Source of the DNA: Paracoccaceae bacterium
GTDB lineage: Bacteria > Pseudomonadota > Alphaproteobacteria > Rhodobacterales > Rhodobacteraceae
Length of the DNA: 64,000 nucleotides
Assembly: GCA_020628545.1 (NCBI GenBank)
Contig: JAHDEX010000013.1
Coordinates: 1-64,000 of the forward strand
Reading direction: 5' to 3'
Part shown: positions 1 through 53,009 of the stretch, piece after piece
Layout: each line of letters opens with the position of its first letter
Position numbering within the stretch: the first letter of the stretch is position 1
Program-made: the position numbers and the translations under genes
The notes under the pieces: generated by a model
The model's input: the letters and a program-made list of their open reading frames with translations, nothing else
The model's database searches: none
What the model was told of the DNA's origin: nothing

Positions 1-584
1 ACGACCTTTGGACAACGATCATCGTCTTTCCAATGATGCTGTCCCCAGCGGTGGTAGGGAACTTCTGGACGTTTCTTTACCAACCGCAGATTGGCCTGTT
101 CAACTATGTGATCGCCTTCTTTACCGGCGCTGACCCTGCCAGCTTTTCGATGATCGGCGATGTCAACCTTGCACCATGGGCCATCATCATTGTCGACACA
201 TGGATGTGGACACCCTTCGTGATGCTGATCTGTCTTGCGGGGCTCAGGTCGATCCCAGACAGCATCTATGAAGCTGCAGAATGTGATCGCGCCAGCAAAT
301 GGCGCCAGTTCTGGACCATCACAATACCAATGGCGCTGCCATTCCTGATGCTGGCCGTGCTTTTCCGTGGCATTGAAAACTTCAAGATGTTTGACCTTGT
401 CGTTCAGCTGACCGGTGGCGGGCCCGGCAACCTTACGACGCTGACGTCAATTGATCTCAAACGCGAAGCCTTTGAGAGATGGCGAACCGGCTATTCCTCT
501 GCCTATGCCGTCATCCTTTTTGTCACCGTCTTTGGGCTTGCCTCGATCTACGTCAAAGCCCTCAACAAGGTAAAAGAGAGATGA
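1..584 (+). CDS. ABC transporter permease (carbohydrate/polyol), 5'-truncated
   Basis: Inner-membrane permease of a binding-protein-dependent importer of the MalF/UgpA class. The reading frame is already open at base 3, so the start lies before the window; about 193 residues are visible. They include several hydrophobic membrane segments and the cytoplasmic coupling loop (EAAECDRASKWRQF followed by P-x3-P), which docks onto the ATPase. The stop overlaps the next permease start (ATGA at 581-584), so the two permeases are translationally coupled and probably form a heterodimer. The solute-binding protein should lie just upstream, outside the window. The substrate cannot be read from this gene; the kinase at the operon end suggests a polyol or triose precursor. 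Confidence 0.9.
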   Translation, partial: DLWTTIIVFPMMLSPAVVGNFWTFLYQPQIGLFNYVIAFFTGADPASFSMIGDVNLAPWAIIIVDTWMWTPFVMLICLAGLRSIPDSIYEAAECDRASKWRQFWTITIPMALPFLMLAVLFRGIENFKMFDLVVQLTGGGPGNLTTLTSIDLKREAFERWRTGYSSAYAVILFVTVFGLASIYVKALNKVKER

Positions 585-7667: not shown

Positions 7668-7673
7668 ACGGAT

Positions 7674-9368
7674 ATGGCGCAGCGCCGGTTCCTGCCCGCC
7701 TTACCGGCGCTGACCTTGCTTGCCATGCTTGGCCCGGTGGTGGCCGGGCTTTACGGAACGATACTTCCCGCTTTCGGTCACATGCCAACGGTTGGTGCAT
7801 TTGGTCCGAATCTCGACGCGTTTCGCGCGCTCTTTGAGTGGCCGGGCTTACCGAGCGCGATCCGGCTGTCACTCACAACCGGCCTCATCGCGACAGCCAC
7901 TTCCTTGCTGATCGTGGCGCTGATCACGGCGGGATGGTCAGGCACGCGGGCGTTTCTGTTACTGGAACGTATGTTATCGCCACTGTTGTCCGTCCCCCAC
8001 GCGGCGGCAGCTTTTGGCATTGCGTTCCTGATCGCCCCGTCAGGCTGGCTGGCCCGGTTCTTTTCACCGTGGCTGACGGGATGGGAGAGGCCCCCGGACC
8101 TCCTGATCGTGCAAGACCCTTGGGGCATCGCGATGACGCTGGGATTGATCACGAAGGAAGTCCCGTTTCTGCTCTTGATGACCCTCGCCGCACTTGCGCA
8201 GGCCGACGCGCAACGGTCCACAACAGTGGCGCAAGCGCTTGGCTATCAACGGATGACAGGCTGGTTGAAAACCGTCTTTCCACGGGTCTATGCGCAAATC
8301 CGTTTGCCTGTCTATGTCACGCTCGCCTATGCGATGTCGGTCGTTGATGTGGCGGTGATCCTCGGGCCGAACACACCGCCCACGCTCGCGGTGCAGATTG
8401 TGAAATGGATGTCCGACCCCGACCTGACGATGCGATTGCAAGCGGCCGCCGCAGCAATCTTGCAACTGGGGCTGGTGGTTGGCGCGTTAGCATTTTGGCG
8501 CTTCGGCGAATGGCTGGTAGAGCGGCTAGGCTGTCGCTGGGTGATGGCCGGTCGGCGGTCGCATGGCGATGGCATCATCGCGGGCGCAGCGCTTGGCCTC
8601 GGGATGCTGTCGGCACTGGCGGTCCTGCTTGGCATCACAGTGCTGGCGATCTGGTCGTTCGCAGCGCAATGGCAGTATCCAAACATCTTGCCCGACGCCC
8701 TGACGACCCGCAGTTGGATGCGGCATAGCAGTGGCACACTGGAAGCGCTGGGCGAGACCACGATCATCGCACTCGTCGCAACTGCCGCCGCTGCGATCCT
8801 AACGATAGGGTGCCTGGAGGCAGAACATCGCTACGGTCTGCGTCTGACAAAACGTGGCCTTTGGCTGCTATACCTCCCACTCCTCATCCCGCAGGTCGCC
8901 TTTTTGCCGGGCTTACAAACGCTGTTCCTGTCGGTAGGGGCAGACATGGGTCGGGGCCCTGTAATGATGGCGCACCTGATCTTCGTGCTGCCCTATGTTT
9001 TTCTGTCACTGGCCGATCCCTACCGGGCATGGGACCCGCGCTATGGCACTATTGCCGGAGCGCTAGGGGCCACGCCAGACCGCACCCTGTGGTGTGTGCG
9101 TTTGCCGATGCTGTTGCGCCCGCTGCTCACGGCCTTGGCCGTTGGTGTTGCGGTCTCGGTTGGGCAATACCTGCCAACACTTTTGATCGGCGGCGGGCGT
9201 GTCGCGACGCTGACGACGGAAGCACTTGCACTGTCATCTGGCGGAGACCGCCGCGCGATTGGCGTCTACGGCTTGATGCAAACCGGAGCCGCCCTGGTGC
9301 CGTTTGCGATGGCACTCATGGTCCCAGCAATAGTATGGCGCAATCGAAAGGGCCTGCGGCATGGATAA
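7674..9368 (+). CDS. ABC transporter permease, fused two-domain (YnjC-like)
   Basis: Inner-membrane permease of 564 aa made of two homologous halves (about 1-280 and 300-564), each with about six membrane spans. Each half has a degenerate EAA-type loop (AQALGYQRMTGWLKTVFPRV; AGALGATPDRTLWCVRLPMLL). This arrangement is that of YnjC and ThiP, where one chain forms the whole pore. The stop overlaps the ATPase start by 8 bp. It works with the binding protein upstream and the ATPase downstream. Confidence 0.9.
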   Translation: MAQRRFLPALPALTLLAMLGPVVAGLYGTILPAFGHMPTVGAFGPNLDAFRALFEWPGLPSAIRLSLTTGLIATATSLLIVALITAGWSGTRAFLLLERMLSPLLSVPHAAAAFGIAFLIAPSGWLARFFSPWLTGWERPPDLLIVQDPWGIAMTLGLITKEVPFLLLMTLAALAQADAQRSTTVAQALGYQRMTGWLKTVFPRVYAQIRLPVYVTLAYAMSVVDVAVILGPNTPPTLAVQIVKWMSDPDLTMRLQAAAAAILQLGLVVGALAFWRFGEWLVERLGCRWVMAGRRSHGDGIIAGAALGLGMLSALAVLLGITVLAIWSFAAQWQYPNILPDALTTRSWMRHSSGTLEALGETTIIALVATAAAAILTIGCLEAEHRYGLRLTKRGLWLLYLPLLIPQVAFLPGLQTLFLSVGADMGRGPVMMAHLIFVLPYVFLSLADPYRAWDPRYGTIAGALGATPDRTLWCVRLPMLLRPLLTALAVGVAVSVGQYLPTLLIGGGRVATLTTEALALSSGGDRRAIGVYGLMQTGAALVPFAMALMVPAIVWRNRKGLRHG

Positions 9369-21154: not shown

Positions 21155-22006
21155 ATGGCGCAACTCAGCTTTGAGCGGAAATATCGCGTCAAGGGCGGCA
21201 CCCTTTTGGGTGGGGACCTGTTCGACTTCTGGGTTGGCCCCTTTTATGTGGGCTTCTTTGGGGTCACGACGTTCTTCTTTGCTGTCCTTGGGACGATCCT
21301 GATTTTTTACGGGGCCAGCCAAGGCCCGACTTGGAACCCCTGGTTGATCTCCATTGATCCACCACCGCTGGAATATGGCTTAGGCGCCGCGCCGTTACTC
21401 GAAGGCGGGCTTTGGCAGATCATCACGATTTGCGCCATCGGGGCCTTTAGCAGTTGGGCGCTGCGCGAAGTGGAAATATGCAACAAGCTGGGCATGGGTT
21501 ACCACGTCCCGATTGCTTTCAGCTTCGCGATCCTGGCCTATGTGACGCTGGTGGTTATTCGCCCGGTGTTGCTGGGGGCCTGGGGGCATGGTTTTCCCTA
21601 CGGGATCTTCAGCCACCTCGATTGGGTGAATAATGTGGGCTACGCCTATGGCAACTTCCACTACAACCCGGCGCATATGGTGGCGATCACCTTCTTCTTC
21701 ACCACCTGTCTGGCTTTGGCGTTGCACGGGTCGCTGGTTTTGTCGGCGGTCAACCCCGGCAACAAGGCGGACGAAATCCGGACGCCTGATCACGAAGACA
21801 CCTATTTCCGCGATCTAATCGGCTATTCCATCGGGCCGCTTGGTATTCACCGCTTGGGCTTGTTCCTGGCGCTGAACGCGGGCTTTTGGTCGGCGGTCTG
21901 CATCGTGATTTCTGGCACGGTCTGGTTCGATGCATGGGCTGACTGGTGGTACTGGTATGTCGACCTGCCGTGGTGGGTCAATCTGGAGGGCGGCGTCAAT
22001 GGCTGA
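21155..22006 (+). CDS. pufL: Photosynthetic reaction centre L subunit PufL
   Basis: Five-helix membrane protein (283 aa) binding the special pair, accessory pigments and the quinone QA/QB system with PufM. It begins [20 protein letters not shown] and carries [20 protein letters not shown] and the helix-D/E histidines ([26 protein letters not shown]). The ATG at 21155 is used because a purine-rich GGATGGAGTGAA precedes it; a frame start at 21137 adds only a short non-conserved stretch. It overlaps pufM by 8 bp. Confidence 0.97.
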
Positions 22007-22913
22007 GTATCAGAACATCTTTACACAGGTGCAGGTCCAAGGGCCGCCTGAGATGGGCGTCGGTGATGTGGAGGACCGGACAGACAAGGCCGGTTTCTCT
22101 ACCCTTGCGGGGCTCTTTGGAAACGCGCAGCTCGGTCCGGTTTATCTTGGTGCCTTCGGCGTGATTTCCTTGGCGACCGGTTTGATCTGGTTCGTGATGG
22201 TTGGCCTCGCCTTCTGGGAGCAGGCTGGCTACAACGCGGGCGTCTTCCTGCGCGACCTCTTCTATCTGTCGCTTGATCCGCCTGTGCCCGGCTACGGCCT
22301 CTCAATGCCGCCCATGGACGAAGGTGGGTATTACCTGATCGCCTCGTTCTTCCTGCTGATCTCGGTGTTGACCTGGTGGGTGCGGACTTACCTGCGGGCT
22401 GAGGCGCTGGGGATGGGTAAACACGTAGCTTGGGCCTTTGCCTCTGCCATCTGGTTGTTCCTTGTGCTGGGTCTGTTCCGTCCGATCCTGATCGGAGATT
22501 GGTCCGAGATGGTGCCCTACGGGATCTTCACACACCTTGACTGGACCAACCTGTTCTCAATCAACCACGGTAACCTGTTCTACAACCCGTTCCACGCGCT
22601 GAGCATTGTATTCCTTTATGGGTCTGCCCTGCTGTTTGCGATGCATGGGGCGACGATCCTTGCAGTCAGCCGTTATGGCGGCGAGCGTGAGATTGAACAG
22701 ATCATCGACCGCGGGACTGCATCCGAACGCGCGGGTTTGTTCTGGCGCTGGACGATGGGCTTTAACGCCACGATGGAAGGCATTCACCGCTGGGCTTGGT
22801 GGTTCGCCGTTCTGACCACCCTGACCGGAGGGATCGGAATTTTGCTGTCCGGCACGGTTGTCGACAATTGGTACGTCTGGGCGCAGGTCCATGGCTTTGC
22901 CCCTGTAGAATAA
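21999..22913 (+). CDS. pufM: Photosynthetic reaction centre M subunit PufM
   Basis: Reaction-centre core partner of PufL (304 aa). Typical features are [16 protein letters not shown] at the start, [21 protein letters not shown], the pigment and iron ligands [20 protein letters not shown], and [13 protein letters not shown] near the C-terminus. ATG at 21999 lies inside the pufL end (ATGGCTGA overlap). No pufC follows; pufX is next, 10 bp downstream, so the special pair must be reduced by a soluble or separately anchored cytochrome. Confidence 0.97.
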
Positions 22914-42721: not shown

Positions 42722-43252
42722 ATGCAAAGGGTGATGATCAACGGCGGTCCCGGATCGGGCAAAAGCACACTTGCGCGGGCGCTCGGTACCGCGACGGGCC
42801 TGCCTGTGTATCACATGGATCAGATCCATCATATGCCCCGGTGGGAGCCGCGCCCGTTGGCAGAGAAAATACCAATGGCCAATGCTATTGAGGCTAAAGA
42901 GCAATGGATTTTTGAGGGCGGGTTTTCAGCAACCTACAACAATCGGGCCGCTCGGGCGGATACGCTCATTTGGCTCGACTTACCGTTTGGGTTGCGCATG
43001 CGGCGGGTGATCGGGCGATTGATCAAGGACTACGGTAAACCCCGGCCAGACTCCGCCCCTGATTGCCCTGAAGAATTCAGCCTTGAAACCCTCGCATTCT
43101 GGAAATGGATTTGGGACACCCGCAAAACCCATCGGATCAAGCTGATCAACTTGATCGACGCCCATCCCCATCTGACAGTGCGCCACCTTACCTCGACCAA
43201 GGCGGTGCGTGACTTCTACCAGCAGATCGGCGAAAACCCCGCTGACCATTGA
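42722..43252 (+). CDS. P-loop NTPase, adenylate kinase-like (FlaR/topology-modulation type)
   Basis: 176 aa. Walker A MINGGPGSGKSTLARAL at the N-terminus, then VYHMDQIHHMPRWEPR and WIFEGGFSATY, the pattern of small kinase-like proteins annotated as DNA topology modulation protein. Substrate not known; the fold suggests nucleotide or small-molecule phosphorylation. The ATG at 42722 is favoured over the GTG at 42716. Precedes pncA by 11 bp, probably one transcript. Confidence 0.85.
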   Translation: MQRVMINGGPGSGKSTLARALGTATGLPVYHMDQIHHMPRWEPRPLAEKIPMANAIEAKEQWIFEGGFSATYNNRAARADTLIWLDLPFGLRMRRVIGRLIKDYGKPRPDSAPDCPEEFSLETLAFWKWIWDTRKTHRIKLINLIDAHPHLTVRHLTSTKAVRDFYQQIGENPADH

Positions 43253-43263
43253 AGGAGACCGCC

Positions 43264-43857
43264 ATGAAAGCCTTGATCGTGATCGACGTGCAAAATGACT
43301 TCTGCCCGGGGGGCGCATTGGCGGTGACTGAAGGAGATCAGATTGTACCGGGCATCAATGCGTTGATGGAGGATTTCGACGCGGTGGTTTTGACGCAAGA
43401 CTGGCACCCGGCTGGACATTCTTCTTTCGCGTCGAGCCATGAAGGCAAGGAACCAATGTCAGTGATTGATATGCCCTATGGACCTCAGGTGCTTTGGCCA
43501 GACCATTGTGTGCAGGGCGGCGGTGGTGCCGCGTTCCACAAGGACCTGAGGACGGACCCGGCCGATCTGATCATCCGCAAAGGTTACAATCCGGCCATCG
43601 ACAGTTATTCGGCGTTCTTTGAAAATGATCATTCGACGCCAACGGGTCTGCACGGATACCTCGAAACGCGGGGGATCAAGGATGTAACGATGGTTGGCCT
43701 CGCGACCGATTTTTGCGTGAATTATTCTGCGGTGGACGCGGCCAAACTGGGTTATGCGGTCACCGTTCGCACGGACCTGTGTCGCGGTATCGACTTTGAT
43801 GGATCGCTCGCCGCCGCGCTCGCAGGAATGGCTGATGCGGGCGTAACCGTTTCTTAA
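43264..43857 (+). CDS. pncA: Nicotinamidase PncA
   Basis: Cytoplasmic amidohydrolase (197 aa) converting nicotinamide to nicotinate in NAD salvage. Catalytic Asp in IDVQNDFCPGG, metal-binding DWHPAGH, the Lys in IRKGYNP, and the nucleophile Cys in GLATDFCVNYSAVDA. The ATG at 43264 has GAAGGAGA at ideal distance. The next enzyme of the route, nicotinate phosphoribosyltransferase, is at 61434 in this window. Confidence 0.95.
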   Translation: MKALIVIDVQNDFCPGGALAVTEGDQIVPGINALMEDFDAVVLTQDWHPAGHSSFASSHEGKEPMSVIDMPYGPQVLWPDHCVQGGGGAAFHKDLRTDPADLIIRKGYNPAIDSYSAFFENDHSTPTGLHGYLETRGIKDVTMVGLATDFCVNYSAVDAAKLGYAVTVRTDLCRGIDFDGSLAAALAGMADAGVTVS

Positions 43858-43955
43858 CAGTGTTCACAATCCGGGCCGTCACCGCGATGTGACTTGCTGC
43901 CAACAGGCCTTTTGGGGTTGAGTGGGGGTAAGCATAACAATCAGCGGAGGGTCCC

Positions 43956-44420
43956 ATGACCATATCACGAATAGCGGCCAGCCTGTTGGCACCGGCCCTT
44001 CTGGCGTGGGGCGCACCGGCGCTTGCCACAGAAGGGGAGCGGATTGAGGTCACGGGAGAGATTATCGACACCTGGTGCTATTTCTCTGGCGTGATGGGCG
44101 GCCCTGACGCGGTGGTCGGCACGGCGCACCACACTTGCGCACTGTGGTGTTCCGCCGGTGGTATCCCTGTGGGTCTGCTTGCCGAAGATGGCACGGTCTA
44201 CATGGTTCTCAAGATCAAAGAAGATGACGCGAGCGCTGGGGGCGATACACAACTGAGATTGGCCAGCCATACGGTTACGGCTGACGGTATGCTCTACCAG
44301 CGTGATGGCTTGAACTATCTGGTGGTGGAAGACGTCGTTTCAGACCTCGATATCACAAACTTCAACGCTGAAGACTACGGCACTGTGCCACCCTTCGCGA
44401 TCCCCAAAGAGGAAAGGTAA
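43956..44420 (+). CDS. Exported cysteine-rich protein A, unknown function
   Basis: 154 aa with a signal peptide (about 1-24, ending PALA). The mature domain reads EVTGEIIDTWCYF, then HHTCALWCSAGGIPVGLLAEDGTVYMVL, and a later beta segment around YLVVEDVV. Three cysteines and two adjacent histidines could bind a metal or form a disulfide. The order of strands suggests a small beta-barrel (OB-like). The neighbouring protein at 44426 has the same arrangement, so the two look like diverged duplicates. It begins a cluster with a SCO copper chaperone and a rhodanese. I know no characterised relative. Confidence 0.8.
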   Translation: MTISRIAASLLAPALLAWGAPALATEGERIEVTGEIIDTWCYFSGVMGGPDAVVGTAHHTCALWCSAGGIPVGLLAEDGTVYMVLKIKEDDASAGGDTQLRLASHTVTADGMLYQRDGLNYLVVEDVVSDLDITNFNAEDYGTVPPFAIPKEER

Positions 44421-44425
44421 GCGTC

Positions 44426-45010
44426 ATGAAAGCATTACTGACAGCTGCACTTTGCCTGACAACAAGCGTTGCGATGGCACAGGAAAACGATCCGTGGGCG
44501 TTTGAGGAAGGATCCGAGGCGCGGTCCTGGAACCTGTTCGCGGAAATTCCGGCGACGTTCGAGGCGGAAGTTGTGGATTTGCTGTGCGAAGTTGCAGGTA
44601 ATTGCGTTGACAACTGCGGTGACGGCAAGCGCCAGCTTGGCCTGCTGCGCACGGCAGACAACGCTTTGATTTACCCGAACAAGAACAACCAGACGTCCTT
44701 CAACGGTGCCGTGGCAGACCTTCTGCCCTACTGCGGCCAGATGGTTGAGGTTGATGGTTTGATCCTTGATGATCCGGACCTCGGCGCGGTGAATATCTAC
44801 CAGCTTCAAACAATCCGTCTTGCAGGCGAGACCGAGTGGAATAAAGCGAACCAGTGGACAAAAGCCTGGGAGGCGGCCAATCCCGGTGCCGAGGGCAAAG
44901 GCCCGTGGTTCCGCCGCGATCCGCGTGTGCTGGCTGAGATCGCCGAGGAAGGCTATTTTGGTCTTGGGCTGGAAAAGGATGAAGAAATCAAGGACGCGAT
45001 CTTCGAATGA
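44426..45010 (+). CDS. Exported cysteine-rich protein B, unknown function
   Basis: 194 aa with a signal peptide (about 1-19, ending AMA). The core AEVVDLLCEVAGNCVDNCGDGKRQLGLL, then ALIYPNKN and PYCGQMVEVDGLILDD, mirrors protein A: a V-x-x-E-VVD-x-x-C strand, a second C-x3-C or C-x2-C group, then GLL and a DG/N-turn strand. A Trp- and charge-rich C-terminal extension (about 135-194) is specific to B. Its stop overlaps the SCO gene start by 4 bp, so it is coupled to copper delivery. Function unknown; a periplasmic thiol or metal protein is inferred. Confidence 0.8.
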   Translation: MKALLTAALCLTTSVAMAQENDPWAFEEGSEARSWNLFAEIPATFEAEVVDLLCEVAGNCVDNCGDGKRQLGLLRTADNALIYPNKNNQTSFNGAVADLLPYCGQMVEVDGLILDDPDLGAVNIYQLQTIRLAGETEWNKANQWTKAWEAANPGAEGKGPWFRRDPRVLAEIAEEGYFGLGLEKDEEIKDAIFE

Positions 45011-45561
45011 TGCGCGTTCTGATACTCTTTGGCCTTTGTGCGGCCCCGTCTGGGGTCGCAGCACAGGGCCTGCCTGGTATGGTCGGGGGGGAATATTCCC
45101 TGACCAACCAATACGGTGACACGCATACGCAGGCCGATCCTGACGGCAAAACGCAGCTCTTGTTCTTTGGGTACGCGAATTGCCAGCAAATCTGCTCGTC
45201 CGTCCTGCCGCAAATGGCTGTCGTCGCGGATGAGATTGCGGCCAAGACAGGGACTGAAATCCGCCCGGTGATGATCACCGTTGATCCAGTTGTTGATACG
45301 GTCGAAAATATCGGACCGGCGCTGATGCTGTACCACGATGATTTTATCGGTTTAACAGGCAGTGATGCGGCGCTTCAGGTGGCCTATGACGCTTTCTCGA
45401 TCGAGAAAGAGTTTCTGTTTGAAGATCCGGAATACGGCCCCGTTTATGCGCATGGGAGCTTTATGTATCTGCTGGATGGCGACGGGAACACATTAACCCT
45501 GATCCCCCCGATCCTGTCAGATGATGAGATCGTGGCAATCATTTCCAACTATGTGGGCTGA
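45007..45561 (+). CDS. SCO1/SenC-family copper chaperone
   Basis: 184 aa, exported thioredoxin-fold protein (signal peptide about 1-20). The Cu-binding motif C-x3-C in GYANCQQICSSVLP and the distal His in YAHGSFMYLLD are present, so copper binding should be intact. The ITVDPVVDTVENIGP segment follows the family pattern. SCO proteins load copper into cytochrome oxidase Cu-A or act as thiol reductants. No oxidase gene is near; its partners are the two cysteine-rich proteins and the rhodanese. Confidence 0.92.
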   Translation: MMRVLILFGLCAAPSGVAAQGLPGMVGGEYSLTNQYGDTHTQADPDGKTQLLFFGYANCQQICSSVLPQMAVVADEIAAKTGTEIRPVMITVDPVVDTVENIGPALMLYHDDFIGLTGSDAALQVAYDAFSIEKEFLFEDPEYGPVYAHGSFMYLLDGDGNTLTLIPPILSDDEIVAIISNYVG

Positions 45562-45563
45562 CG

Positions 45564-46046
45564 ATGGATCGACGCGCATTTATCGGGGCGGGGGCGCTCG
45601 TCGCTTTATCGGCGGGTGGCTTCGTCGCCGCTGACGGGCAAAACCTCTTTTACACCGCGATCACGCCAGATTTTCCGGGCGGCGTAATCTCTGCCCCTGA
45701 TGCGCATGCCAAAGCCGTCGCAGGTGATATCGTTCTGGTTGATATCCGCAGGCCAGACGAATGGGACAAAACAGGGTCAGGCGAAGGGGCGCATCGTATC
45801 GATCTGCGTGTGGCCGACTTTGCCGAGCAGGTAAAAGCGGCGGCCGACGGAAACTTTGATGCGCCGATTGCGCTGATCTGCGCGCGCGGCGTGCGCTCTG
45901 CACGAACGTCCAACCAGCTGCTGGAGGCGGGCTTTACCAACATCATTGATGTGCCGGAGGGAATGCTTGGATCGGCCGCAGGGCCCGGTTGGCTGGAGAG
46001 AGGACTACCGCTTGTTCACGAAGATTACGCGCCGCCTGGCGCTTAG
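45564..46046 (+). CDS. Exported single-domain rhodanese
   Basis: 160 aa. The N-terminus MDRRAFIGAGALVALSAGG looks like a twin-arginine (Tat) signal. A rhodanese domain follows (about 45-145) with DIRRPDEW and active-site Cys in LICARGVRSARTS. The loop has the six residues after Cys typical of sulfur-handling rhodaneses. It begins 2 bp after the SCO stop. Likely role: carrying or transferring sulfane sulfur in the periplasm, perhaps for proteins A and B (inference). Confidence 0.88.
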   Translation: MDRRAFIGAGALVALSAGGFVAADGQNLFYTAITPDFPGGVISAPDAHAKAVAGDIVLVDIRRPDEWDKTGSGEGAHRIDLRVADFAEQVKAAADGNFDAPIALICARGVRSARTSNQLLEAGFTNIIDVPEGMLGSAAGPGWLERGLPLVHEDYAPPGA

Positions 46047-46863
46047 CCTCGTCGCGACAGGGTTTGCGACCAGTGCGCAGGCGGGGTGTGGCCCCGACCC
46101 GGACCCGTGCGAAGTGGCTTTGGGCACATACCATATCGCTTTGCCGGACGACCCCGGCAGCGCAGTTCCAGCGCTGATGTTTCTGCATGGCGCGGGCGGG
46201 TCTGGCAATGGCTCGACGCGGCCGGGTGGAATGGCGGACAATCTGAATGCGCGCGGCTATGCGGTTATTGGCCCGAACGGTCTGCAACGCCCGAACAGTC
46301 GCTTCGGACCGGGATGGTCCTTCCATCCTGAAAGACCGCAACAGCGCGATGAGATGGCGTTTTTCAAACAGATTGCTGATGATGCCGCCGCGCGTTTTGG
46401 GATTGATCGATCTCAGATCGTGTTGGGTGGTTTCTCCATTGGTGGGTCCATGGCGAGCTACATCGCCTGCCAGGAACCAACAGTCTTTGCAGCTTACGCG
46501 CCTGTCGGCGGCAGTTTCTGGCGGCCGCATCCCACCGAGTGTGCGGGACCTGTGAAGCTGCTCCACACCCATGGGTGGCAAGACAAGACAGTGCCGCTGG
46601 AAGGTCGCCCTTTAGGTGGGGGCGCGATTTATCAGGGTGATGTCTGGCATGCGATGGGCGTCTGGCGCGCTGAAAACAGCTGCGACGGCCTGCGCGCTGA
46701 CACGTTTGACACCGATGGCGCCTTCTGGGTGCGCCGCTGGGAGGAATGTGCACCGGGCACGGCGCTGGAGTTTCTGTTGCACCCCGGCGGGCATGGCATT
46801 CCACGGGGTTGGTCGGGCTACATGGCGGATTGGTTTGAAACCGTGACACAGGATCAAGACTGA
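46012..46863 (+). CDS. LpqC-like polyhydroxybutyrate depolymerase/esterase family protein
   Basis: 283 aa, exported alpha/beta hydrolase. The start used is TTG at 46012, giving a signal peptide (ITRRLALSLVATGFATSAQA) and preceded by GGAGAGAGG; the earlier in-frame ATGs at 45946 lie in the rhodanese gene and give no signal. Oxyanion and nucleophile motifs: MFLHGAGGSGNG and the GFSIGGSMA elbow (Ser). Catalytic His probably in HPGGHGIPRGW. Cysteines at C24, C29 and others suggest disulfides. Overlaps the rhodanese by 35 bp. Confidence 0.83.
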   Translation: MFTKITRRLALSLVATGFATSAQAGCGPDPDPCEVALGTYHIALPDDPGSAVPALMFLHGAGGSGNGSTRPGGMADNLNARGYAVIGPNGLQRPNSRFGPGWSFHPERPQQRDEMAFFKQIADDAAARFGIDRSQIVLGGFSIGGSMASYIACQEPTVFAAYAPVGGSFWRPHPTECAGPVKLLHTHGWQDKTVPLEGRPLGGGAIYQGDVWHAMGVWRAENSCDGLRADTFDTDGAFWVRRWEECAPGTALEFLLHPGGHGIPRGWSGYMADWFETVTQDQD

Positions 46864-48899: not shown

Positions 48900-50407
48900 C
48901 GATAGAGCCAAACCTCACTGATCGGGGTGCCATCGACGTGCATCTGCGCCCGCATTTCAACGGCTTTCGCGTCACCCGGCAGAAACGAGAATGCCAGACG
49001 TACGCCACCGGTGCCTGGATTGCGTTGCAAGATACCTTCGGAGATTTCACCGGTGTTGGAGCGGACAGTCAGCGTGACCTCCGATAGGTCGTCTGGCAGC
49101 ATTGGGTGATCGGCAAAATCAATTGCGACGACGTTTTTGACCTGATCGAAGCCCTTGCCGATGCGGGTGTTTGTCACACGGGCCACGTCAGGCACATTGT
49201 CCGGCTCATCGCCCCAAGCCATTTGATAGCTAAAGCTGTAGTTCGATCCAGCCGGGATCGGTTCTCTTGGGCGCCAGTAGGCGACAATGTTGTCGTAGAT
49301 TTCTTTGTCCGCCGGAATCTCAACCAGTTCGACGATGCCGGCGCCCCAATCCTCACCTGGTGTGATCCAAAGGGATGGGCGGTTTTCGTAGTGAGCCTCA
49401 AGGTCGGCGTAGTCGTCGGCGCGACGATTGCGTTGCATCAGGCCAAACCCTTTTGGGTTCTCGTCAACGAATGAGCTGATCTGGACGCGTGTTGGGTTCG
49501 CGAGCGGCCGCCACAGCTTTTCGCCGTTTCCGTTCCAGACCATCAGGCCTTCGCTGTCGTGGACGGCGGGCCGGAAATCATCAAACCGGACACGGTTTGT
49601 CTCATCGAAGAAGAACATCGATGTGAGCGGGCCGAGACCCACGTGGAGGAGATCAACGCGGGGATAAAGCGTGCCAGCGACATCCACCATCGTTGGCTCG
49701 CCCGGTGCGCCATGACTGATACGGAACGTATAGGCACCGGTTGTCGATGGACCATCGAGGAGAGCGTGCACGACGAACTCAGTATCGCCGGGTTCGGCGG
49801 CTTCGACCCAGAAATGCGTAAAGTCGGGAAATTCTTCGCCATTGGGGTCGCCGGTGCGCAACGCCAGACCGCGCGCAGAGAGGCCGTAGTTCTGACCGTT
49901 CGCAATGCCCCGGAAATAGGAGGCACCCTGGAATACGAAGAATTCGTTGAAGAGGCCTTTTTCGGCAAGTTCAGCCCGCAAGCGGAAACCGGAATAGCCC
50001 ATCGTCTCGTCAATCGGCAGTTCTGGAAACTGATCTGTGGTGGCGAAAAGGTTGATATCAAAGCCAAGGGTTTTCGCGATCCCGTCTTCGACAAGGTTCA
50101 CCTGGGTGGGACGCGGCACGTAAAGACCGGCGGTGAAGAGGTCCATCTTCATCGGGCGGTCCTCGTCGATCCAAACCGCATTGCGTGGATCAAACCAGAT
50201 ATGGTTGAACTCATCATAGCTCAGATCAAGCCATGGCTGCGGGATCATCGGCTGGGGAACGTAGTCGCGACCGGCGAGATTCTTGGCCATCTCATGCACC
50301 ATGGATGGGTCAAACGGGGTTTCCGCGATCACCAGTTCTGGTTTCGCAAAAACGGGTGTTGCAGCAGTTGCGGCCAGACCGGCCAATAGGGCGCGACGTG
50401 AAATCAT
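48887..50407 (-). CDS. opgG: Glucans biosynthesis protein G (OpgG/MdoG), Tat-exported
   Basis: 506 aa periplasmic protein with two beta domains, required to form or branch the glucan backbone. The N-terminus MISRRALLAGLAATAATPVFA is a Tat-type signal, more like OpgD than the Sec-exported OpgG of E. coli. Motifs: LSYDEFNHIWFDPRNAVW, HYENRPSLWITPGEDWG and SYQMAWGDEPD. The ATG at 50407 overlaps opgC by 4 bp; upstream codons to 50512 belong to opgC. Overlap with opgH is 13 bp. Confidence 0.93.
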   Translation of the reverse strand: MISRRALLAGLAATAATPVFAKPELVIAETPFDPSMVHEMAKNLAGRDYVPQPMIPQPWLDLSYDEFNHIWFDPRNAVWIDEDRPMKMDLFTAGLYVPRPTQVNLVEDGIAKTLGFDINLFATTDQFPELPIDETMGYSGFRLRAELAEKGLFNEFFVFQGASYFRGIANGQNYGLSARGLALRTGDPNGEEFPDFTHFWVEAAEPGDTEFVVHALLDGPSTTGAYTFRISHGAPGEPTMVDVAGTLYPRVDLLHVGLGPLTSMFFFDETNRVRFDDFRPAVHDSEGLMVWNGNGEKLWRPLANPTRVQISSFVDENPKGFGLMQRNRRADDYADLEAHYENRPSLWITPGEDWGAGIVELVEIPADKEIYDNIVAYWRPREPIPAGSNYSFSYQMAWGDEPDNVPDVARVTNTRIGKGFDQVKNVVAIDFADHPMLPDDLSEVTLTVRSNTGEISEGILQRNPGTGGVRLAFSFLPGDAKAVEMRAQMHVDGTPISEVWLYRWTI

Positions 50408-51618
50408 CCGGTTGCAGACTTTCTCCAAGGTTGGCTTTTGAACCAAGCGGCTGTGTAGGCGATGCCGATCAAGAATGCCCAGCCCAACACGTTGCTTAAC
50501 GCAACAGGCCAAGCACCGTTCCCAGTCTGATCAAGAATAAAGCCCACAAAGATGGACAGCATCATTGAGACCATGAATACAGCGAGAGATTGCTGACCGA
50601 CCTTCGTCAGCACGGTGACAAGGAACTTGCCCACTTTGCCGATTGCCGTGCGCCCCTCTACGATCAGGCGGCGACCACCGTTACCTGCGATGGCATAGGC
50701 CAGATAGGCCACGCAAAGGAAGTGGATGAAGCGCACAAGCCCAATGTCTGTCTTGGAAATCCACATAGCGTTCGCGACGCGCCAGTCCTGCGCCCATGAA
50801 AAACCCCACTCACGGATTGCAACGTGGCTCAGGCTCATGAAACCGATCGTGATAATTGCGGCGATGGTCACCAGGACCTTGTTCACTGGTGGAGTTGGGA
50901 TCCAACCGCGCACGAGGGCGAAGCCGGTAAAGAAGACTAGTTGCCAGGCAAACGGGTTGAAGAACCACTGGCGGTCATTTGTGAAGGACGCGGGCAGGCC
51001 GATGATGAACCTCTCAAGCCCAAGCGACTGGAGAAGCCGCGTCTGCCCCATGAACCAAACCACTGCCATAAACGCGAAAACCAGCTCTATCCGGACATAA
51101 GATAGCGCCATGATCAGCGGCATCATCAGCAGGATCACGATATACATCGGCAGGATGTCAAAATAGTTTGGCACGTAGGTCATGGTCAGCAGACCAAACA
51201 ATGCCTCCGGTGTGTTATTCAAAAACACCTGCAATGCGAGGGAGTTCACGTAAAGCTTTTCAAACGCGAAGCTGTCCAAAATGATCAGCATGAACAAAAG
51301 CGCAAAGAACAGGCAGATGTGGGCCCAGTAGACCTGCCAGCAGCGGAACAACACGCGTGCAGTGCCGAGCACCCAGCCGCGACGGTCGTAACTTGTGCCG
51401 AACGCGATGGCTGAAGCCATGCCGGAGCAGAAGACAAAGATCTCTGTTGCGTCCGAGAACCCGAACCGCCCGGGAATCCAGTCACCCCAATAGTTGTTGG
51501 GCGCGTGGCTCGTGAAAATGATGAGCATGGCGATGCCGCGATAGAAGTCGAGCCGCGGATCGCGGACTCGCCCCTGAACTGGGGGCGCGAGTGTGGGAGT
51601 GGCAGCAGCCATATTCAT
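50404..51618 (-). CDS. opgC: OpgC-family membrane acyltransferase
   Basis: 404 aa with about ten membrane helices, of the acyltransferase-3-like OpgC family that transfers succinyl groups to periplasmic glucans. Starts with RDPRLDFYRGIAMLIIFTSHAPNNYWG, the conserved first helix with the catalytic-type His. ATGs at 51618 and 51612 are both possible. First gene of the opg operon; 17 bp after the TPR gene stop in the same direction, so the TPR gene may be read with it. Confidence 0.9.
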   Translation of the reverse strand: MNMAAATPTLAPPVQGRVRDPRLDFYRGIAMLIIFTSHAPNNYWGDWIPGRFGFSDATEIFVFCSGMASAIAFGTSYDRRGWVLGTARVLFRCWQVYWAHICLFFALLFMLIILDSFAFEKLYVNSLALQVFLNNTPEALFGLLTMTYVPNYFDILPMYIVILLMMPLIMALSYVRIELVFAFMAVVWFMGQTRLLQSLGLERFIIGLPASFTNDRQWFFNPFAWQLVFFTGFALVRGWIPTPPVNKVLVTIAAIITIGFMSLSHVAIREWGFSWAQDWRVANAMWISKTDIGLVRFIHFLCVAYLAYAIAGNGGRRLIVEGRTAIGKVGKFLVTVLTKVGQQSLAVFMVSMMLSIFVGFILDQTGNGAWPVALSNVLGWAFLIGIAYTAAWFKSQPWRKSATG

Positions 51619-51635
51619 GCGTTTTCAGGTCCGGG

Positions 51636-53009
51636 TTATTCAGCCGGGCAACGGGCAGCCATGCCAGCAGCAGCACGGCCGTCGGAAATCAAGGCGCGAC
51701 GGGCGGCCGCATATCCGTCTTCATGCCCGCCGCGGCGCATTGCGCGCGCAGCGAGGATGTCCTCGGCCTCGTCGAGATAGCCCGCACGGATGCCGCTATC
51801 GATTGTCAGGCGTTCAAACACGTCACGTTGTGCATGGCTTCCGCCAGCGTCCTGCATCGTGCGCCGTGCGCGTGCCAGATTGACGAATGCCTTGTCGTAT
51901 TCGGCCTCTCCAAAGGCTTCCAAGCCGACTGCTGCGGCAACACCGGGTGCAGCCATGGCTTTTTGCATATCGGTTTTGTTGTCCTGTGCATCGCGGTGCA
52001 GACGGCCCAGAAGTGTCTTGATTTCTGCATCGCGGTTATCGCCTACGAGGGCCAGCATGTAGTGCAGGTCAGCAAAGATCAGGCAGCCGTCCTCAGTCCG
52101 ATTTGCGGACAGATCAGCAAGTTCTTCCCAACGGTCGCCGACATTGACGCCATCCAGTTCCAGACGAGACAGCAAAGAGGTCGCGTTTGAAATGTCGCGG
52201 TAGTCGTCTGTTTTGTCTTGACGGATCTCACGGTCATAGAGGTCCAGCACAACATCGTGCTGGCCGAGGTCAAGGTGCATCAGCGCCTTGTGCCACCAGA
52301 CGTGGTAGCGAAAGTTGTTGCAGTGCGCCCAAGCGTTCTCACGCCCAGTAAGCCATTCGATGCCGCCTTTAGCGTCGGCCGTCATATCGTGAACATGCGC
52401 GACTGCGTGTAGACCCCACGCATCGTCTGGAGAAATCAACATGCCTTCGCGGCCTACAGATTTTGCGCGTGAGAAGTCGCCGGTTTCTTCAAGTGCAAAG
52501 GCATAGCAGCCCATCAAATAGCCGCGACCAGGGTGGTCCGGGCCGTAGGCAGGCATCACCTGCTCAAGCACCGCGCGCATGCCTTTGTTGTCACCGAGAA
52601 CGAACCGTGTTGCATGGTCGAGCTTGACGGCCAGAATGTCGTCGGGTGCTTTGGCGATGATTTCGGAAAAGTGGACGATGGCCTTGCTGGGATTGCCATT
52701 GACCCAACCTTCCAGCGCATCAATGAATTGCTGTTCACGCGTAGAGATTGGTGTCGCAACCGCAGCGGTTTTTGCGGCCTGCAGCGCCTCGCGCGCGGTG
52801 GGCATCAACTCCCGACGGCCGAGCAGCGTGTAGAACATGCCTTTCACCGCATGTGCCAAAGCAAAATCCGGGGCTGCCGTAAGCGCATCACCCAAGTGTC
52901 CGGGTGTCGCTGCGCCATGTGCCAAGAATGCCAACTGGGTTTTGTTCCATGCGTCGAGCGCGGGGCCAGGTGCCACTGTGGTGGTTTGGCCAAAAATATC
53001 CTGCGTCAT
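51636..53009 (-). CDS. TTC38-like tetratricopeptide repeat protein
   Basis: 457 aa, predicted soluble and almost entirely helical, with TPR-like repeats. It resembles the TTC38 family: AWGLHAVAHVHDM and NFRYHVWWHKALMHLDLGQ, where the paired His residues are conserved. TTC38-type proteins occur in bacteria and eukaryotes without a settled function. No signal peptide. Followed by opgC after 17 bp; a link to glucan synthesis would be speculation. Confidence 0.83.
   Translation of the reverse strand: MTQDIFGQTTTVAPGPALDAWNKTQLAFLAHGAATPGHLGDALTAAPDFALAHAVKGMFYTLLGRRELMPTAREALQAAKTAAVATPISTREQQFIDALEGWVNGNPSKAIVHFSEIIAKAPDDILAVKLDHATRFVLGDNKGMRAVLEQVMPAYGPDHPGRGYLMGCYAFALEETGDFSRAKSVGREGMLISPDDAWGLHAVAHVHDMTADAKGGIEWLTGRENAWAHCNNFRYHVWWHKALMHLDLGQHDVVLDLYDREIRQDKTDDYRDISNATSLLSRLELDGVNVGDRWEELADLSANRTEDGCLIFADLHYMLALVGDNRDAEIKTLLGRLHRDAQDNKTDMQKAMAAPGVAAAVGLEAFGEAEYDKAFVNLARARRTMQDAGGSHAQRDVFERLTIDSGIRAGYLDEAEDILAARAMRRGGHEDGYAAARRALISDGRAAAGMAARCPAE

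Follow-up and report, generated by a model that had tools for sequence, protein, structure and literature searches.

A paralogous pair of putatively exported proteins encoded together with a SCO protein in Rhodobacteraceae, candidate copper or thiol clients

This analysis concerns three consecutive genes in a 64,000-nucleotide stretch of DNA (the window, positions 1 to 64,000 of contig JAHDEX010000013.1 of a Paracoccaceae bacterium), which encode two small cysteine-rich proteins, designated here A and B, and a SCO1/SenC-type protein (SCO). The best explanation of the data is that A, B and SCO constitute a compact periplasmic module, with the rhodanese and LpqC-like genes that follow being neighbours outside it. 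Judging from their sequence profiles, A and B are true paralogues, that is, diverged duplicates; the SCO, which resembles copper chaperones, is probably their partner, and the evidence points to a copper or thiol protein pair located outside the inner membrane. Since A and B accompany the SCO more constantly than any other partner and both contain a Cys-x3-Cys motif, they are read as its clients, most likely as proteins that would bind copper, a reading held with somewhat less than even confidence, in which copper ranks first and a thiol relay second.

The linkage of the three genes was scored by tblastn. Among 149 Rhodobacteraceae genomes, including the one studied here, B is found in 19, all of which also have a strong A, while two further genomes have a weak A-like match only. 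A and B are adjacent in all of the 18 other Rhodobacteraceae loci, and SCO comes next in 17 of them; in locus L047 the slot following B (7672-8181) is occupied by an open reading frame (ORF) without the SCO motif and with a weak SCO trace (E 0.10). The named genomes, represented by the best 80 of 265 A relatives and, consequently, by the closest ones and not by a random draw (Tateyamaria, Litoreibacter, Roseovarius and kin are those closest to the window by A), have B adjacent to A in 80/80 and SCO next in 78/80, the two loci without SCO ending near contig ends, 1172 and 789 bases beyond the start of A. In other alphaproteobacterial families A and B are adjacent in 12/12 loci, with SCO next in 9/12. 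Across 398 genomes sampled from the phylum, a strong A and a strong B occur in one and the same set of 9, leaving aside a weak B match in G563 and weak A-like matches. The neighbourhood data therefore favour the coupling of A and B to SCO that had been proposed in a first-pass annotation of this DNA. The window and these three groups of loci make up a set of 111, in which, for at least three pairs of loci, both members come from a single genome; three further loci with A, B and SCO (L158, L167 and L168) stand outside the counts. With automatic choice of start codons, A and B lie within 20 bases of each other or overlap in 109/111 loci, and B and SCO in 83/105, the junction in the window being ATGA, a 4-base overlap. 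The commonest other cluster of neighbours, of the ABC-transporter ATPase type by eye, was present in 9 of 21 sequences (20 loci plus the window), in clusters that had no systematic annotation and for which the ORF picking missed some genes. Separately, transposase-like ORFs were seen by eye past the hydrolase in L047.

The first-pass annotation had also noticed the same order of elements in A and B and had taken the two for diverged duplicates; both points are upheld by the comparison of profiles that it had proposed. Direct BLASTP of the window proteins gave no useful match, and hhalign with profiles of 19 close sequences each returned a probability of only 56.7; when other families were added (20 sequences for A and 21 for B), the probability rose to 96.3 (E 1.7e-9, 88 columns), and the common order of elements, E-I/V-I/V-D-x2-C, a Cys group, G-L-L and a D-G strand, is the register of this alignment. 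Profiles rebuilt by script gave 95.0, well above the 100 column-shuffled A controls (at most 11.3), and neither profile exceeded 5.5 against SCO, rhodanese or LpqC. When 8668 ORFs with a minimum length of 80 codons, drawn from 116 loci, were searched with the B profile, the A proteins ranked directly behind the B proteins, with E <=0.01 for 99 of the 111 ORFs classed as A by script, and the best match that by position was neither A nor B appeared at E 1.5; the reverse search, from the A profile to B, was weak (best B at E 0.014). In distant loci, tblastn with the window A reached the site of B (E 1.8e-7 and 30% in L154). The structural matches listed for the model of B are mostly OB folds, and an OB fold may be inferred for A from this paralogue, whose core was modelled.

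The residues of metal-ligand type hardly change. In A, C41, M47, H58, C61 and C65 are invariant in the 110 alignment rows with a letter at those positions, and H59 is present in 109 of 110. The motif reads C-x5-M-x10-H-x2-C-x3-C in 101 sequences, with x6 replacing x10 in 9, and is counted over 110 of 111 loci, the A of L153 having been read only in part. From the motif onward A has exactly three Cys in 110/110, so that one Cys must lie outside any internal disulfide. In B, C54, C60 and C64 are conserved in 111/111 and C103 in 110/111, with four Cys from the motif onward in 108/111. In SCO, C59, C63 and H149 are kept in 105/105, with no further Cys past residue 25. Cys-x3-Cys is thus common to all three proteins, which by eye also have signal-peptide-like starts.

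Relatives of A extend beyond these loci. Seven distinct A-like proteins (L059, L060, L181, L182, L183 and two on Rhizobium plasmids), annotated for example as 'hypothetical protein' (WP_020052525.1), are homologous to A, with a probability of 98.1 against the A profile versus 4.2 against that of B, and have the same C/M/H/CX3C signature, C-x(4,5)-M-...-H-x2-C-A-x2-C-x2-G-G-x-P in 7/7; unlike A, by eye they are membrane-anchored and consist of two domains. In all seven cases the adjoining protein combines ferric-reductase-like with Rieske parts, which were recognised by Pfam in L059 and L060 and by eye in L181-L183; in the two Rhizobium stretches it is annotated as a Rieske protein. Neither B nor SCO gave a match in L059 and L060, and neither is annotated in the Rhizobium stretches. 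As separate observations, in the Rhizobium leguminosarum WSM1689 plasmid (L206, 4998-8565) next after the A-like and Rieske genes come a TetR regulator, a sigma-70/DUF1109 pair and a gene of the chlorite dismutase family, which may make up a stress regulon, and in L059 (8083-13470) the surroundings of the A-like and Rieske-cytochrome b genes include a YHS-like protein, recognised by eye, and a rhodanese-LpqC stretch, after which come relatives of window positions 50404-52838.

Searches of family collections returned no Pfam or NCBIfam family above cut-off for either A or B. In Pfam the window proteins had no match at E 10, and hence none to PCuAC, and in NCBIfam A matched only YehD (E 0.012, 15.4 bits against a cut-off of 136, covering residues 1-46). 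Sub-threshold matches of relatives were limited to DUF5818 in the A-like protein of L059 only (E 0.079, 13 bits against a cut-off of 27, at residues 100-124, which do not include the Cys motif), DUF4431 in the distant A of L154 (E 0.0056, 16.9 bits against a cut-off of 24, over 14 residues) and DUF3833 in the distant B of L169 (E 0.01, 15.9 bits, cut-off 25). Sequence searches of solved structures gave no credible match for A or B; a match of B to 4qks (E 0.0026) was rejected, being to a designed protein and covering profile positions 124-170. Neither the window A nor the B of L154 was found in the plasmid collection, and open-access literature on SenC with an OB fold and copper yielded nothing, which does not prove absence in print. 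A and B would therefore appear to be undescribed, putatively exported proteins with unchanging ligands of metal type. Because neither reaches a Pfam or NCBIfam cut-off and the wider superfamily of A extends to rhizobial membrane redox proteins, a single biochemical finding would supply an annotation for many hypothetical proteins.

The genome that contains the window has four SCO genes, the window SCO scoring lowest (116.9 bits versus 147 to 169). A tree of 33 tips, comprising 22 of the 105 A-B-linked SCOs together with 11 further ones taken from six genomes, and leaving out L195 (no motif ORF), L193 and L198 (linked SCOs) and L197 (weak, below cut-off), has 2 changes of label against a mean of 9.5 in shuffles, none of the 500 shuffles being that low. 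Fifteen linked SCOs, that of the window included, make up one side of a 100/100 branch, and 10 of the 11 other SCOs fall apart from the linked ones, the sole unlinked SCO among them being L194, from G435, a genome that has A and B but no SCO next to them. Two observations weigh against A-B and the linked SCOs being strictly paired: a single clade of all linked SCOs was recovered in just 12% of bootstrap trees, and G229 has A and B, yet its single SCO groups with the unlinked ones. The latter case lowers the confidence in the client reading. Two more SCO genes about 2 kilobases (kb) apart were also seen on contig C29 of G000 (43236-45798), with a similar pair in G066.

If A and B are clients of the SCO, they would form an old paralogous exported OB-fold pair (modelled for B, presumed for A), in which the Cys-x3-Cys loop between strands one and two would hold a metal site, most likely for copper, the putative ligands being Cys/Met/His/Cys/Cys for A and four Cys for B. 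The SCO would act as a maturation factor, reducing the Cys-x3-Cys of A and B, handing over Cu(I), or both, if transfer runs in this direction, and the matured proteins, presumably in contact, would probably work as one redox or copper-handling unit. According to PMC7558416, Sco1 uses a pair of Cys and a distal His to bind Cu(I) and serves CuA, the Cys-bridged site in cytochrome c oxidase that SCO metallates or reduces. The methanethiol oxidase cluster mtoX-SCO1/SenC-mauG, present in roseobacters too according to PMC5739008, likewise couples a SCO gene to the genes of a likely copper client; the window operon differs in having no MtoX or MauG, the SBP56 of the same genome lying on contig C122. 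The relation of SCO to CuA (cytochrome c oxidase, NosZ) is similar as well, in that a client with a periplasmic Cys-x3-Cys, Met and His has a SCO partner. CuA is a cupredoxin with the ligand order C-x3-C-x3-H-x2-M; this differs from A, with C-x5-M-x(6 or 10)-H-x2-C-x3-C and a paralogue modelled as an OB fold. Small periplasmic OB-fold proteins that bind copper or silver are known in CusF/SilF, which the modelled B may resemble. A more specific and doubtful version of the client reading is that A holds a CuA-like centre of a new kind, in which the ligand types of CuA (a Cys-x3-Cys, Met and His), joined by a third Cys, would be reordered on an OB fold in place of a cupredoxin and assembled by an SCO tied to A and B, B being a four-Cys copper-holding partner and the membrane relatives beside Rieske/cytochrome b proteins an electron-transfer branch of one metalloprotein superfamily.

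The alternative of a thiol relay without copper, in which the thioredoxin-like SCO would maintain the Cys-x3-Cys of both A and B in the reduced state for thiol chemistry such as repair or peroxide defence, is rather unlikely, although it is in agreement with the Cys-x3-Cys of all three proteins, with the membrane redox proteins that adjoin the A relatives, and with a model for Thermus thermophilus, outlined in PMC7558416, in which SCO is possibly an oxidoreductase and not a copper donor. The invariant Met and His of A and its distant relatives suit metal binding better, and the distal His of SCO, kept throughout, also argues against it. In a genome with four SCO genes, an operon that names both a SCO and its likely clients would permit a direct test of the SCO role, copper donor versus thiol reductase.

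Less likely again, A and B may themselves be copper chaperones or adaptors that feed SCO, and thereby the usual oxidases, in the manner of PCuAC. Small periplasmic copper carriers do work together with SCO, as PMC7558416 indicates, and the four SCO genes of the genome are compatible with such a role. The lack of a PCuAC profile match in A and B speaks against it, as does the absence of a recognised oxidase among the recurring neighbours, which were not systematically annotated. So does the rarity of A and B (19 of 149 genomes of the family), copper oxidases being general. A role of the Cys groups in binding zinc or forming structural disulfides, with the linkage to SCO having some other cause, is improbable: two disulfides or one zinc site could be built from the four Cys of B, the OB fold is a general scaffold, and A and B are kept in G229 without a SCO of the A-B type, but the odd number of Cys in A and a linkage to SCO that spans many families are difficult to accommodate.

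Weakest of all, and very improbable, is the sulfur part of the metal/sulfur relay that the first-pass annotation had envisaged, with the rhodanese giving sulfane sulfur to A, B and SCO: the rhodanese gene follows SCO with an overlap or a gap of at most 20 bases in 31 of the 33 loci with both (on the opposite strand in 2) and is statistically associated with A-B genomes, but no rhodanese lies within 4 kb in 51 of the 80 named loci, and a rhodanese-LpqC pair exists without A and B in L059. The other half of that proposal, in which SCO is connected with A and B through a metal or thiols, is better backed. Rhodanese is found within 4 kb of A and B in 29/80 named loci and LpqC in 23/80; besides the window, rhodanese occurs in 3/18 Rhodobacteraceae loci, in one of the three on the opposite strand. 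These counts, together with L059, speak against rhodanese and LpqC as core parts of the module, contrary to the earlier inclusion of the rhodanese. The presence of mdoH, also within 4 kb, in 18 of the 23 named loci that have a nearby LpqC, and of rhodanese-LpqC without A and B, indicates that both belong to another conserved stretch; they look like passengers. As for the association, which ignores relatedness, a rhodanese at E <=1e-36 was present in 10/19 genomes with A-B versus 14/130 without (Fisher p 7e-5 over the 149 Rhodobacteraceae, with a cut picked after the list had been seen), and at the preset cut of 1e-15 in 10/19 versus 34/130.

The features of the locus are collected in the table. 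The gene positions, the 4-base coupling of B to SCO and the order SCO, rhodanese and LpqC-like hydrolase had been given correctly in the first-pass annotation, as judged from the ORF coordinates, and the Cys-x3-Cys and distal His of SCO and the rhodanese Cys, which it had described as intact, are found so in the alignments, the latter (C106) in 33/33. The SCO matches PF02630 (SCO1-SenC) with 116.4 bits (cut-off 22.8) and the rhodanese PF00581 with 37 bits (cut-off 22.2).

Table. Coordinates and characteristics of the features in the window
Feature	Position	Strand	Characteristics
Gene A	43956-44420	+	154 amino acids; signal peptide seen by eye, putative export
Gene B	44426-45010	+	194 amino acids; putative exported paralogue of A; C54, C60, C64, C103
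Core of B	residues ~36-137		OB fold in model; plus helical tail at C-terminus
SCO gene	45007-45561	+	184 amino acids; SCO1/SenC; C59-x3-C63, H149
Rhodanese gene	45564-46046	+	160 amino acids; twin-arginine N-terminus; active-site C106; facultative neighbour
LpqC / short-chain polyhydroxyalkanoate (PHA) depolymerase-like alpha/beta hydrolase	46012-46863	+	TTG start; facultative neighbour, mostly alongside rhodanese

Upstream of A, the motif GTGAT[CT][GTC], often after A-rich bases, was seen in 51 of 111 stretches (for example L062, L085 and L093), 48 of the 51 copies lying 50-109 bases before A; the window has no good copy. Words of 8 bases recurred in up to 19 of 102 upstream regions, the maximum in three crudely shuffled sets being 8. 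A scan for consensus promoters found none.

The co-occurrence of A-B with other systems was compared between the 19 Rhodobacteraceae genomes with A-B and the 130 without, in tests that ignore relatedness and multiple testing and that were kept out of the mechanism. NosZ above cut-off shows no association (5/19 versus 37/130, p 1). SBP56/MtoX is present in 14/19 versus 38/130 (Fisher p 0.0004), or in 12 versus 33 (p 0.002) after removal of seven genomes chosen by the authors for partial or weak matches, and the photosynthetic reaction centre in 12/19 versus 49/130 (p 0.046), so that co-occurrence with MtoX, rhodanese and photosynthesis is hinted at. The window itself contains two Photo_RC matches (photosynthetic reaction centre genes) at 21242-22898, about 21 kb before A.
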